64,000 nucleotides of DNA from assembly GCA_000163555.2 (NCBI GenBank), contig ADAC02000001.1:682001-746000 (forward strand), given 5' to 3'. The stretch's first letter is position 1. The number at the start of each line of letters is the position of its first letter. Positions 19,130 to 49,532 of the stretch are shown piece by piece. The translations under genes were made by a program, and so were the position numbers. Source of the stretch: an alpha proteobacterium HIMB114 (GTDB taxonomy: Bacteria; Pseudomonadota; Alphaproteobacteria; Pelagibacterales; Pelagibacteraceae). Under the pieces are notes generated by a model. The model saw only the letters and a list, made by a program, of their open reading frames with translations, was not told where the DNA came from and ran no database searches.

Positions 19130-20239
19130 CTATTTCACGTAACTTTTTTTATAAAAAGGCATCTTAAAAATTTTAGCAGCATGCCTTTTTCCCCTCACTT
19201 CTAATTCTAAATCTTCTCCTTCATTAGAAAATTCTTTTAATACATAGCCCATTGCAACAGGTCCGTTTACACTTGGACCAAATCCACCACTTGTTACAAC
19301 TCCTATTTCTTTATCACCTTTAAAAACTTTTGAACCTTCTCTAGCAATTGTTTTTTCAGGTTTGATCCCTACTCTCTTTTTTAAAGCACCATTCTTAATT
19401 TGATCTTTCACAATTGAAGCGCCTAAAAAATTTCCTTCTTCTTTGTTTTTCTTTGATAACGCCCAAGTTAAACTTGCTTCTACAGGTGTAGTTTTGGTAT
19501 CTAGATCATGGCCATATAAACATAAACCAGCTTCTAATCTCAAAGAATCTCTTGCTCCTAAACCAATAAGCTTAACATTATGATCATCTAATAAAGTTTT
19601 GCAAAATTTTTCAGCTAAAGAATTTTTTATTGATACCTCAAAACCATCTTCTCCAGTATATCCCGAACGCGTGACATAAATATCTTCATTATTAAATTTA
19701 AACTTTGATCCGTTCATAAAAGTTAGAGCTGAAACTCCAGGGATGATATTATTTAAAATTTCAACAGCTTTAGGACCTTGTATTGCAATTAAAGATAAGT
19801 CTTCATGTAATTTAGTTTTTGAAGGATCGATTACTTCGTGAATTCTTTTAATATCGTGATGTTTGCAAGCCGCATTAAGAACTATATTTAGTCCACCTTC
19901 AATTTTCGTGACAATCAAATCATCATCAATACCACCATCTTTATTCATCAAAACAGTGTACTTAGATTGGTTGTTATTTAATGATTTTAAATCAATAGGA
20001 ACTATTTTTTCTAAAGGCAAATACTCTTCTTCAGTTCCATAGATTGAGAATTGACCCATATGGGAAACATCAAAAATTCCAGCATTAGCTCTTACATGTA
20101 AGTGCTCTTTCATAATGCCTTCAGGATATTGCACTGGCATTTGGTATCCCGCAAATGGAACCATCTTTCCACCAACGGATACATGAAAATCGTAAAGCGC
20201 TGTTTTTAAATCTGTAATTTTTTCTGCGTTTTGACTCAT
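19130..20239 (-). CDS. gcvT: Aminomethyltransferase (glycine cleavage T protein)
   Basis: GcvT releases ammonia and passes the C1 unit to tetrahydrofolate. Motifs include FAGYQMPVQYPEGIMKEHLHVR, GIFDVSHMGQ, SRSGYTGEDGFE-type (RSGYTGEDGFEV) and GLGARDSLRLEAGLCLYGHD. Length 369 residues is usual. It is the first gene of the operon and begins 18 nt after the second aptamer of the glycine riboswitch. The start is within reach of aptamer refolding, fitting translational or transcriptional control. Confidence 0.98.
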   Translation of the reverse strand: MSQNAEKITDLKTALYDFHVSVGGKMVPFAGYQMPVQYPEGIMKEHLHVRANAGIFDVSHMGQFSIYGTEEEYLPLEKIVPIDLKSLNNNQSKYTVLMNKDGGIDDDLIVTKIEGGLNIVLNAACKHHDIKRIHEVIDPSKTKLHEDLSLIAIQGPKAVEILNNIIPGVSALTFMNGSKFKFNNEDIYVTRSGYTGEDGFEVSIKNSLAEKFCKTLLDDHNVKLIGLGARDSLRLEAGLCLYGHDLDTKTTPVEASLTWALSKKNKEEGNFLGASIVKDQIKNGALKKRVGIKPEKTIAREGSKVFKGDKEIGVVTSGGFGPSVNGPVAMGYVLKEFSNEGEDLELEVRGKRHAAKIFKMPFYKKSYVK

Positions 20240-20256: not shown

Positions 20257-20403
20257 ATGCCCGTCTGTCGATTTACCTGAGAGATTTGCTCCTTCGGTGG
20301 GACTTTAATCCGCTTTCCAGAGTTTATTTTATATACGGTCCATTTACCTGAGAGTTTCCTGGGCTTTGCTCCTTCGGTGCTGATTTAACAGACTCTCCCG
20401 CAT
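20257..20403 (-). ncRNA. Tandem glycine riboswitch upstream of gcvT
   Basis: On the minus strand two similar aptamers are arranged in tandem: aptamer 1 at about 20403-20335 and aptamer 2 at about 20325-20258. Each contains the conserved CACCGAAGGAGCAAA core followed by CTCTCAGGTAAA and a closing GAC/GGAC element, joined by a short AT-rich linker. This is the well-known cooperative gcvT (glycine) riboswitch, which turns on glycine catabolism when glycine is abundant. No strong intrinsic terminator is evident between aptamer 2 and the ATG. Confidence 0.96.
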
Positions 20404-20430
20404 ATAAAGTTATATATCAATTCAAAACAA
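20402..20430 (-). promoter_or_regulatory. Candidate sigma70 promoter of the gcv operon
   Basis: On the minus strand TTGTTT (20430-20425), a 17-nt spacer and TTATAT (20407-20402) form a reasonable housekeeping promoter. Its expected start site falls at the first bases of riboswitch aptamer 1, which is the position the RNA structure predicts. Confidence 0.5.
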
Positions 20431-46136: not shown

Positions 46137-46213
46137 GCGCCTGTAGCTCAACTGGATAGAGCGCCAGATTTCGGCTCTGGAGGTTCAGGGTTCGACTCCT
46201 TGCAGGCGCGCCA
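46137..46213 (+). tRNA. tRNA-Arg (anticodon TCG)
   Basis: A cloverleaf with acceptor stem GCGCCTG/CAGGCGC, discriminator G and encoded CCA, D-arm AGCTCAACTGGATAGAGC, anticodon stem CCAGA/TCTGG around TTTCGGC, and T-arm AGGGTTCGACTCCT. The anticodon TCG reads CGA and related CGN arginine codons. Confidence 0.96.
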
Positions 46214-46280
46214 AAATAAAAAGTCCTATAAAAATTTACAAATGTTCCAAAAATATATTCCAAACCACAAGATATGCTAA

Positions 46281-46389
46281 ATACAACTTTATAGTTGTAT
46301 ACGGTTCAACTGAACCTCTCATTTGTTATACCTATTAGTAGAGTAATTTGTAAATTGCAACGCTACTAATTGTATAAACTATAAGTTGT
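46281..46389 (+). promoter_or_regulatory. Multi-hairpin 5' leader before the betaine-type binding protein (candidate regulatory RNA)
   Basis: Three stems are visible: ATACAACT/AGTTGTAT (46281-46300), GGTTCA/TGAACC (46303-46316), and ATTAGTAG/CTACTAAT (46334-46370). The 3' segment ACTATAAGTTGT (46378-46389) can also pair with ACAACTTTATAGT of the first hairpin, giving a mutually exclusive long stem enclosing the other two. The leader ends just before the AAGGAGAG ribosome binding site. No known riboswitch class is recognised. Confidence 0.5.
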
Positions 46390-46407
46390 AAAAATTAAGG
46401 AGAGAAA

Positions 46408-47418
46408 ATGAAAAAAATATTAACGGTTTTAATAGGAGCTTGGTTCTTGTTATTATCTAACACGGGTGAAAGTAATGCCGCCTGTAAAAATGTAAAAATT
46501 GCAAACATGAACTGGGCATCAGCTGGTCTGATGGCCAATATAGATAAGATTGTCCTTGAAAAGGGGTTTGGTTGTAATGTTGAACTTATTCAAGCTGATA
46601 CAGTTCCAGCATTTACATCAATGAATGAAAAAGGTTCACCTGATATCGTTCCAGAACTTTGGGCCAACTCATTTATTACACCGCTGAATAAAGCGATTAA
46701 AGAAGGAAGACTTCACAGATTAAACAAAGGTCCAATTACCGGACTTGGTGAAGGATGGTGGGTCACTCCTGCATTTAGAAAAAAACATCCTGAAATTAAA
46801 ACTGTGATGGATTTATTAAAAAGACCAGATTTATTTCCACATCCAGAAGATAAATCAAAAGGTGGATTTGTGACTTGTCCTGCAGGTTGGGCATGTCAAT
46901 TAAGTAATGCAAACCTTTTTAGAGCTTTTGAAATGGAGAAAAAAGGTTGGAAACTTATTGATCCAGGTTCTGCAGCTGGTTTAGATGGAACAATTGCAAA
47001 AGCAGCTGAGAGAGGACAAAATTGGGTTGGTTACTATTGGGCACCAACTGCAATGATTGGAAAATATAATCTAGTGAAACTTGATTGGGGAATTCCATTT
47101 GCAGGAAAAGAAAATTGGGATGGATGTATTGCAAAACCCGAGAAAGATTGTGCAAATCCAAAGCCAACTGCATGGATTACACCAGCTGTAAACACTGTGG
47201 TTACTGATAAGTTTAGAAAAAATGCTGATAAAAATTTAATCACATATTTTGAGAAAAGAACTTATCCAGGCAAAGTAATGAACGGTATGCTTGTTTACAT
47301 GACAGAAAATCAAGCAGATGGTTCTGATGCTGCAATCGAGTTTTTTAAAAAACACGAGACTGTTTGGACGAAATGGCTTCCAACAGATGTAGCAAACAAA
47401 ATTAAAAAATCATTATAA
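46408..47418 (+). CDS. Glycine betaine/proline-type ABC transporter substrate-binding protein (OpuAC family)
   Basis: A signal peptide (MKKILTVLIGAWFLLLSNTG, cleavage near SNA-AC) is followed by an OpuAC fold with NMNWASAGLMANIDKIVLEKG, EGWWVTPAFRKKHPEI and NWVGYYWAPTAMIGKYNLVKL rich in Trp/Tyr that could form an aromatic cage for a quaternary amine. Ligand could be glycine betaine, proline betaine, DMSP or choline. A strong ribosome binding site precedes the ATG at 46408. The permease follows after 18 bp. Confidence 0.88.
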   Translation: MKKILTVLIGAWFLLLSNTGESNAACKNVKIANMNWASAGLMANIDKIVLEKGFGCNVELIQADTVPAFTSMNEKGSPDIVPELWANSFITPLNKAIKEGRLHRLNKGPITGLGEGWWVTPAFRKKHPEIKTVMDLLKRPDLFPHPEDKSKGGFVTCPAGWACQLSNANLFRAFEMEKKGWKLIDPGSAAGLDGTIAKAAERGQNWVGYYWAPTAMIGKYNLVKLDWGIPFAGKENWDGCIAKPEKDCANPKPTAWITPAVNTVVTDKFRKNADKNLITYFEKRTYPGKVMNGMLVYMTENQADGSDAAIEFFKKHETVWTKWLPTDVANKIKKSL

Positions 47419-47424
47419 TATTAT

Positions 47425-47473
47425 CTCGCTCTAAAGATGGAATATCTTATAAACTTTCCCTCTTTAGGGCGAG
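47425..47473 (+). promoter_or_regulatory. 13-bp hairpin that covers the permease start codon
   Basis: CTCGCTCTAAAGA (47425-47437) and TCTTTAGGGCGAG (47461-47473) form a 13-bp RNA stem with one G-U pair and a 23-nt loop. The A of the permease ATG (47437) is the last stem base. It begins 7 nt after the binding-protein stop. It could protect the upstream mRNA end and lower permease translation. Confidence 0.65.
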
Positions 47474-48324
47474 AAACACTTCGAGATTTAAAAAAAGGAG
47501 TAGATAGTTCTTTTAAAGACTTTTCACGATCATATGGTGAAGGTATAGAAAATTTTTTTGACCCCTTATTACAATTTTTAGTTTTTTTTGAAAAATTATT
47601 AATTAACTCTCCTTGGCCAATTATTATTGCAGTTATTGCTTTTTTGACTTGGAAAGCATCTCAAAAATTAAGTTTAGTCTTTGGTACAGTTTTATCATTT
47701 ATTATTATTGGTTTGTTTGGAATGTGGGAAGATACCATGTCGACACTTGCAATTATTTCAGTTGCTACACTACTTTGTTTATTAATTGGTGCACCTATTG
47801 GAATTGTAATGGCAAAATCAAACAAAGTTTCGGTAGTGATGTCTCCAATTTTAGATACCATGCAAACCATTCCTACGTTTGTTTATTTAATCCCAATCAT
47901 CATGTTACTTGGAATTGGAAAAGTTCCAGGTTTAATCGCAGTTTGCATTTATGCAATTCCACCGATTGTAAGATTAACAAATCTTGGAATTAGAGAGGTA
48001 AATGCAAAATTGATTGAAGCTGGAAAAGCGCTTGGAATTTCTAAGTTTGTCATTCTATACCGAATAGAATTTCCTTTAGCACTTCCATCAATAATGACTG
48101 GAGTTAACCAAACTATCATGATGTCTCTTGCAATGGTGGTCATTGCATCAATGATTGGAGTGAGTGGTCTTGGTGTTCCAATCTTAAGATCAATTTCAAA
48201 TCAATATCTTGCTCTAGGTTTAATGAATGGGTTAGCAATTGTTGCACTTGCAATCATATTTGACCGAATATCTCAGCACTACGCAAGGCGAATGCAAAAA
48301 CACAAAGATGTAATGAAAAAATAA
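47437..48324 (+). CDS. Betaine-type ABC transporter permease (ProW/OpuAB family)
   Basis: The binding-protein-dependent permease motif is visible in IREVNAKLIEAGKALGISKFVILYRIEFPLALPSIM (EAA loop, read in segments), with about seven membrane segments in 295 residues and a MQTIPTFVYLIPIIMLLG region typical of ProW. It has no evident Shine-Dalgarno, and its start codon lies in a hairpin. No cognate ATPase (ProV) follows; the next genes are the amino-acid transporter, so an ATPase must come from elsewhere. Confidence 0.9.
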   Translation: MEYLINFPSLGRETLRDLKKGVDSSFKDFSRSYGEGIENFFDPLLQFLVFFEKLLINSPWPIIIAVIAFLTWKASQKLSLVFGTVLSFIIIGLFGMWEDTMSTLAIISVATLLCLLIGAPIGIVMAKSNKVSVVMSPILDTMQTIPTFVYLIPIIMLLGIGKVPGLIAVCIYAIPPIVRLTNLGIREVNAKLIEAGKALGISKFVILYRIEFPLALPSIMTGVNQTIMMSLAMVVIASMIGVSGLGVPILRSISNQYLALGLMNGLAIVALAIIFDRISQHYARRMQKHKDVMKK

Positions 48325-48443: not shown

Positions 48444-49487
48444 ATGAAAAACATAATGAAAGCAATTGGTAGTTTATCAGTATTAGCTTTTGTTTTAACG
48501 GCTTGCGGCGACGGCGGTGGAGCTAAAAAAACAACTAGTACTTTAGATACTACTAAAAGTCAGGGCTTTGTGAAATGTGGTGTTTCGCAAGGTGTGCCAG
48601 GATTTTCAAATGCTGACGCGTCTGGAAACTGGACAGGTATCGACGTGGATGTTTGTAGAGCAGTAGCTGCTGCAGTTCTAGGCGATGCTAGTAAAGTAAA
48701 ATATACAGGTTTAAGTGCTAAAGAAAGATTTACAGCACTTCAAGCTGGTGAAATTGATATATTATCAAGAAATACTACTTGGACATTAGAAAGAGATGCT
48801 TCAATCGGATTAACATTCGTTGGTGTAAACTTCTATGATGGTCAAGGTTTCATGGTGAGAAAAAGCACAGGTTTAAAATCTGTAAATGATTTTAAAAATG
48901 GTGTGAAAGTTTGTACTAACCTTGGAACAACAACTGAGCTTAACATGGCTGACTTCTTTAAATCTAAAGGTGTTAAATACGAGCCTGTAGTATTTGAAAA
49001 AGCTGACGAAGTTGTTCAAGCTTATGATGCTGGTAGATGTGATACATATACTACAGATAAATCAGCACTAGCTGCACAAAGTACTAAAATGAAAGATCCA
49101 ACTGAGCACGTTGTATTACCTGAAACAATCTCAAAAGAACCATTAGGTCCTGTTGTGAGACAAGGTGATTCAAAATGGGAAGATGTTGTAAGATGGTCAT
49201 TAAATGTTTTCATCGAAGCTGAAGAATATGGCGTTAATTCTGGAAACATTGACTCAATGAAAGAAAGCAAGAACCCAGCTATTCAAAGAATAGTAGGTGC
49301 TGAAGGTACTAAAAATGGTGAAGCCCTAGGTTTAGATAATCAGTGGAGCTATAGAATTATCAAGCAAATTGGTAACTATGGTGAAAGCTACAAAAGAAAC
49401 CTAGCTGACACTAATATTATGCCTGAAAGAGGTCCAAACCAACTATGGACTAAAGGCGGAATTTTATACGTACCGCCAGTGAGGTAA
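48444..49487 (+). CDS. aapJ: General L-amino acid ABC transporter substrate-binding protein
   Basis: The 347-residue protein has an N-terminal signal with lipobox LTAC (Cys 21), so it is predicted to be a lipoprotein rather than a free periplasmic protein. The family-3 solute-binding core is clear: GFVKCGVSQGVPGFSNADASGNW, DVDVCRAVAAAVLGD, LSAKERFTALQAGEIDIL, and C-terminal RGPNQLWTKGGILYVPP. It is followed by an intrinsic terminator before aapQ, which favours excess binding protein over membrane parts. Confidence 0.95.
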   Translation: MKNIMKAIGSLSVLAFVLTACGDGGGAKKTTSTLDTTKSQGFVKCGVSQGVPGFSNADASGNWTGIDVDVCRAVAAAVLGDASKVKYTGLSAKERFTALQAGEIDILSRNTTWTLERDASIGLTFVGVNFYDGQGFMVRKSTGLKSVNDFKNGVKVCTNLGTTTELNMADFFKSKGVKYEPVVFEKADEVVQAYDAGRCDTYTTDKSALAAQSTKMKDPTEHVVLPETISKEPLGPVVRQGDSKWEDVVRWSLNVFIEAEEYGVNSGNIDSMKESKNPAIQRIVGAEGTKNGEALGLDNQWSYRIIKQIGNYGESYKRNLADTNIMPERGPNQLWTKGGILYVPPVR

Positions 49488-49504
49488 TTATATACTTAAA
49501 AAAA

Positions 49505-49532
49505 GGGCTAGAATTTCTAGCCCTTTTTTTTT
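49505..49532 (+). terminator. Intrinsic terminator between aapJ and aapQ
   Basis: GGGCTAGA-ATT-TCTAGCCC (49505-49523) followed by nine Ts is a near-perfect rho-independent terminator 17 bp after the aapJ stop. Read-through past it would set aapQMP expression below aapJ. Confidence 0.9.

Follow-up and report, generated by a model that had tools for sequence, protein, structure and literature searches.

The leader preceding the OpuAC-family transporter genes of the window (the whole 64 kb stretch of DNA analysed here, from a genome of 1.24 Mb that is SAR11-like to judge by its relatives) carries at 46229-46327 what is taken, with slightly better than even confidence, to be a promoter/operator DNA module for osmolyte uptake. 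This stretch would be the window's copy of a cis-regulatory DNA module made up of a promoter, an operator-like inverted repeat, and two downstream boxes, which SAR11-type bacteria would keep before genes for betaine/DMSP-type binding proteins; a putative DNA-binding regulator would bind the repeat, at the transcription start or slightly beyond it, and set expression of the osmolyte ABC transporter. The basis for proposing it is its conservation, the fixed order and spacing of its boxes, its near-single copy number, its position before opuAC or proX genes, and the lack of any RNA fold common to its members; the boxes' action as DNA, the site of the transcription start, and the existence of a regulator are three things we infer. 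The block is a more interesting object than the RNA switch proposed in a preliminary description of this leader, whose broader claim, that the region is regulatory, is borne out by the strong conservation.

The leader lies directly 3′ of a tRNA-Arg (TCG) gene (46137-46213; ARAGORN and Rfam), which is outside the control block and on the + strand, as are the leader features and transporter genes described below. From the tRNA to the start codon there are 194 nt (46214-46407), close to the 190 nt first described; the actual leader is probably shorter, about 120 nt: judging by the conserved TATGCT at 46273-46278, transcription would begin near 46285, within the 5′ arm of the long stem discussed below. 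TATGCT, a -10-like box and putative promoter element, is unchanged in seven of the eight genomes of the genus, and TGCTATATT corresponds to it in locus L167; it can alternatively be read as an extended -10, TGCTAAAT, at 46275-46282. A consensus scan for sigma-70-type promoters found none on the + strand within the leader, and the -10-like boxes are candidates. The inverted repeat CAACT-TTAT-AGTTG (46284-46297) can be read as a local hairpin or as an operator-like palindrome, and also supplies the 5′ arm of the long stem. It is followed by the P2 hairpin GGTTCAACTGAACC (46303-46316), which folds, and which occupies the site of GGTTACAT in relatives, the sequence having been replaced; by a TTTGTT box (46322-46327), invariant in seven aligned leaders and the counterpart of T[AG]TGTT in relatives; by the lineage-specific P3 hairpin (46327-46376) and 3′ arm of the long stem P1 (46377-46390); and by a ribosome binding site, AAGGAGAG (46397-46404), mostly unpaired in every fold.

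The gene 3′ of the leader (46408-47418) encodes an OpuAC-family osmolyte-binding protein, much as the preliminary description supposed (Pfam OpuAC, PF04069, 1.2e-49), 63% identical to the Pelagibacter-type OpuAC. Its only PDB relative by sequence is 7yle, which is RnDmpX, and all eight RnDmpX residues given for the DMSP pocket in the available text of PMC10030565 (W35, T64, W84, E113, W152, A153, Y200, and W202) are identical in the 7yle alignment; the protein is DmpX-like, with DMSP as a putative substrate. It shares its family, its kinship to 7yle, and the eight residues with the DmpX/OpuAC osmolyte ABC transporters of marine bacteria; unlike the case in the window, no leader or operator is described for the DmpX system in that available text (PMC10030565). 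The cognate permease (47437-48324; BPD_transp_1) is ProW/ChoW-like, with scores below cut-off for the choline/betaine permease models. Between the two genes, at 47424-47474, is a very stable 18-pair hairpin (z -7.7) containing the listed permease ATG (47437); because it does, either this start codon has been misassigned or the hairpin restrains permease translation. A further hairpin (AAAAAAAGGGCTAG...CTAGCCCTTTTTTTTT, 49498-49531), terminator- or attenuator-like, lies 3′ of an amino-acid binding-protein gene (48444-49487) and 5′ of its permease, as expected for unequal expression of a binding protein and its permease.

The inverted repeat, with an N3 or N4 center, is found 5′ of opuAC/proX genes across the family, and in the family's opuAC leaders it lies at about -82 and is followed by two boxes. 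The full motif is the repeat CAAYY-N3/4-RGTTG, then TTnCA, a spacer of 12-14 nt, and T[A/G/T]TG(T/C)T; genomes with it 5′ of opuAC number 62 of 399 in one genus (g4) and 15 of 23 in another (g3), nearly always with a single copy. The g4 layout, ACAAT-N17-TTG-N7-TTTGC-N14-T[AG]TGTT, matches once each in 64 of the 399 genomes and not at all in reversed controls; matches in G242 and G307 were unrelated shared sequence and were removed, leaving 46 distinct genuine sequences. The g3 layout consists of CAAYY-N3-RGTTGT, GGTTACAT, and TRTGYTT. As the strict pattern RGTTGT-GGTTACAT-TRTGYTT it is found in 12 of 118 genomes of the family, all of them g3, once per genome and, where checked, always before opuAC; a looser pattern finds 15 of the 23 g3 genomes, once each except for two copies in G118, of which the one that was read is also 5′ of opuAC. 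Of 20 pattern loci retrieved, 19 have an opuAC gene downstream; the remaining one is an unrelated match. Searching with a covariance model built from the g4 element (R1) did not recover the window block and gave a weak match in L006; because of this, the apparent g1-g4 homology rests on the shared layout and the g3 intermediates. Several g3 opuAC leaders (among them L144, L145, L150, L152, L160, and L161) have a second palindrome, (A)TTTCACATGAAA(T), some 10-15 nt 5′ of the repeat. At seven Pelagibacter-type loci (L040, L041, L043, L066, L069, L078, and L079) the gene divergent from opuAC resembles Bhmt or is betaine-demethylase-like, as read from the protein ends; in such genomes the block may act on a locus for betaine catabolism.

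Nearer to the window, five sister species (G002 and G004-G007) share the promoter-proximal block 46229-46306 at 81-94% identity, with identity ending at 46301-46306. It has the same syntenic place and the same neighbors, except that G002 and G007 lack the tRNA and the upstream neighbors; the tRNA is therefore not part of the block. In these species the pair of genes behind it encodes a ProW-like permease and ProX, the latter of the E. coli type and scoring above cut-off for the NCBIfam equivalog. Compared with these, the window's binding protein is non-orthologous (about 25% identity to ProX), and its permease is about 50% identical. Before ProX, the pattern in the window's genus is CAACT-N4-RGTTGTATACGGTTACAT...TTTGTT; the window keeps the repeat, GGTT, and TTTGTT, without ACAT. 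A pattern drawn from the first block is absent from other genera of the family, and within the window's own genome a loose inverted-repeat pattern gave hits not above the reversed control. Synteny shows that the window lineage swapped a ProX/ProW pair for a DmpX-like OpuAC pair behind a retained promoter. Most simply, then, the 5′ arm of the long stem would belong to a promoter region older than the gene it now controls; because of their distribution among genomes, the 3′ arm, which is missing from the five ProX-type leaders, and P3 would have arrived with or after the exchange.

Invariant boxes separated by a spacer of constant length and freely varying sequence, as found here, are typical of protein-binding DNA. 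RNAalifold gave no pairs on alignments of g4-type (22 sequences) or g3-type (16 sequences) leaders, pair counts for covariation in the inverted repeat were no better than in shuffles, and its outer pairs are frequently A.A; of nine g3/g4 leaders tested, all but L041 have z near 0. A 9-pair long-range helix in leaders of the g3 type shows 87% pairing, and in two genera U-A has given way to C-G; 43 of 500 shuffles reach the same level. Among the 46 distinct g4 sequences the closing pair of the repeat is T-G in seven, C-G in four, and C-A in three. In leaders read without restriction to the pattern, the third box always has A, G, or T as its second base, never C; the downstream box was ruled out as a -10 element on this ground. 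Against the DNA reading, T[A/G/T]TG in this box also fits a start codon, and transcription starting at the -10-like boxes would put the module wholly inside the mRNA, making a role as RNA possible. The module might then act in the 5′ UTR as a short 5′-terminal hairpin with unstructured boxes, controlling opuAC translation or mRNA fate, possibly with a tiny uORF starting from T[A/G/T]TG. The presence of -10-like boxes just 5′ of the repeat in several lineages, the G-U variants at its closing pair, the avoidance of C in the third box, and the weak long-range covariation in g3 would all suit such a role; the missing consensus fold, the mostly ordinary stability of the leaders, a frame after the third box that varies in length and stop position between lineages, and the lack of a ribosome binding site before this box make it doubtful. 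A minimal uORF as a stand-alone explanation was dropped because of this variable frame length and stop, and is kept only as part of the 5′ UTR alternative. That such an element (a 5′-terminal hairpin, two boxes, and possibly a minimal uORF) exerts post-transcriptional control over betaine/DMSP uptake in SAR11 is considered quite unlikely; if true, it would be a new post-transcriptional control of osmolyte uptake in very abundant ocean bacteria.

The window's own leader does fold, largely as the preliminary description had it. The minimum free energy (MFE) structure of 46275-46395 (-29.8 kcal/mol, z -4.29, with none of 200 shuffles as low) contains the long stem, as 46282-46289/46383-46390 and 46291-46296/46377-46382, together with local hairpins P2 (46303-46316) and P3 (46327-46376), and of 999 windows, each 121 nt long, along the + strand of the whole 64 kb it has the lowest z. 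The reverse strand of the leader folds too (z -4.48), as expected for inverted repeats in DNA. Mutually exclusive stems had been described; this holds for the long stem and the local hairpin at 46283-46298, which are nearly isoenergetic (maximum pair probability 0.59 and 0.41, respectively, for a transcript from 46279), and no other pair excludes another. The leader was also said to belong to no recognized RNA class, and Rfam agrees: at gathering and relaxed thresholds it has no match, the best sub-threshold hit having an E-value of at least 1.5, and the whole window yields only tRNA and a glycine riboswitch. The latter aptamer (20326-20410, - strand) precedes gcvT-like (19130-20239) and gcvH-like genes, an arrangement known for SAR11.

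The observation of pairing is thus correct; its interpretation as a switch lacks support. Under that interpretation P1-P3 would be a leader RNA, a riboswitch or thermosensor, coupling an osmolyte, its precursor, or temperature to translation of the binding protein. The very stable fold with two nearly isoenergetic states is what such a switch would need, and 115 nt of leader (46293-46407) are identical in the only other genome with the complete leader, G001 (96.5% identical overall), while the binding-protein gene differs at 70 of 1011 positions (6.9%), 60 of them third codon positions. Confinement to these two genomes counts against it: a nucleotide search with the leader against 80 opuAC loci found, beyond short stretches, only G001/L002, and the 3′ arm of P1 and the whole P3 hairpin are restricted to the window's genome (G000) and G001. 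Only one leader substitution in G001, A46291C, involves a stem: it disrupts the long stem and falls in the loop of the local hairpin, which is the predicted MFE form there; covariation, the support originally proposed for P1-P3, is accordingly absent for P1 and P3 as far as two sequences allow, and the wider block has no consensus fold. Nor was an expression platform found. The ribosome binding site is hidden in neither state (unpaired probability 0.5-0.9 for any assumed transcript start), the sole terminator-like site is weak, and no terminator is tied to the alternative stem. With no Rfam match either, a ligand- or temperature-sensing switch is very improbable.

What the extra stem might do instead is a separate question. 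Because 115 nt are unchanged while the gene has diverged by about 7%, the leader is probably under selection, or was recently shared by recombination. In the tRNA-Arg, the window and G001 (L002) have six differences at 46186-46202, clustered in its 3′ half, a possible sign of recombination at the tRNA. The stem is read as a lineage-specific addition to the leader, probably selected, that may perhaps act on mRNA stability: the extra segment, 46329-46398, would form the long stem through complementarity to the operator, is kept in both genomes that have it, and would most likely affect mRNA stability or leader shape, not serve as a ligand switch. One version of this, by analogy, would make P1/P3 a hairpin for RNase III or for stability; it applies just to the extra segment and can hold alongside the DNA module. 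P1 and P3 together would make a long, almost continuous duplex close to the 5′ end, and in E. coli, cutting by RNase III at a stem-loop in betT mRNA sets its stability under osmotic stress (PMC4067347); with an internal mismatch in G001 on the other side, this is a possible explanation held tentatively. The long stem might also be a by-product, arising by chance or from a duplicated half-site in AT-rich DNA and having no function of its own. AGTTGTA, the right half of the inverted repeat, occurs at 46293-46299 and again at 46384-46390, in the 3′ arm, and G001 does not keep the stem intact; the identity of 115 nt between genomes whose gene differs by 6.9%, and a leader z lower than in any other of the 999 windows, speak for something more, and this reading is rather doubtful.

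Elements of comparable kinds are known. Comparison of SAR11 leaders has yielded candidate structured RNAs (SAM-V, rpsB, ffh, SAR11_0636, and others; PMC2704228), likewise intergenic cis elements in the same group of organisms; secondary structure is conserved in the main motifs of that set, whereas none is detectable in the window block, and Table 1 of that paper names no opuAC/proX leader. The betT element (PMC4067347), studied in E. coli, is like the window stem a stem-loop in an osmolyte-transporter mRNA, and serves as an analogy. For the DNA module itself, a parallel is offered by the BusR/c-di-AMP operators of Gram-positives where, according to the available text of PMC8517857, an osmolyte transporter is under DNA control via bipartite sites, as proposed here.

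As judged from sequence comparison, the conserved block adds a new cis-regulatory element to a kind already familiar. To our knowledge, few regulators have been identified in SAR11 bacteria; betaine and DMSP uptake is relevant to the cycling of carbon and sulfur. A compact block, nearly always in one copy per genome and before genes for osmolyte-binding proteins, is a direct target for finding the putative regulator, and the window shows a case in which a transporter pair was exchanged behind a promoter that was kept, with ProX/ProW in the sister species and a DmpX-like pair here.
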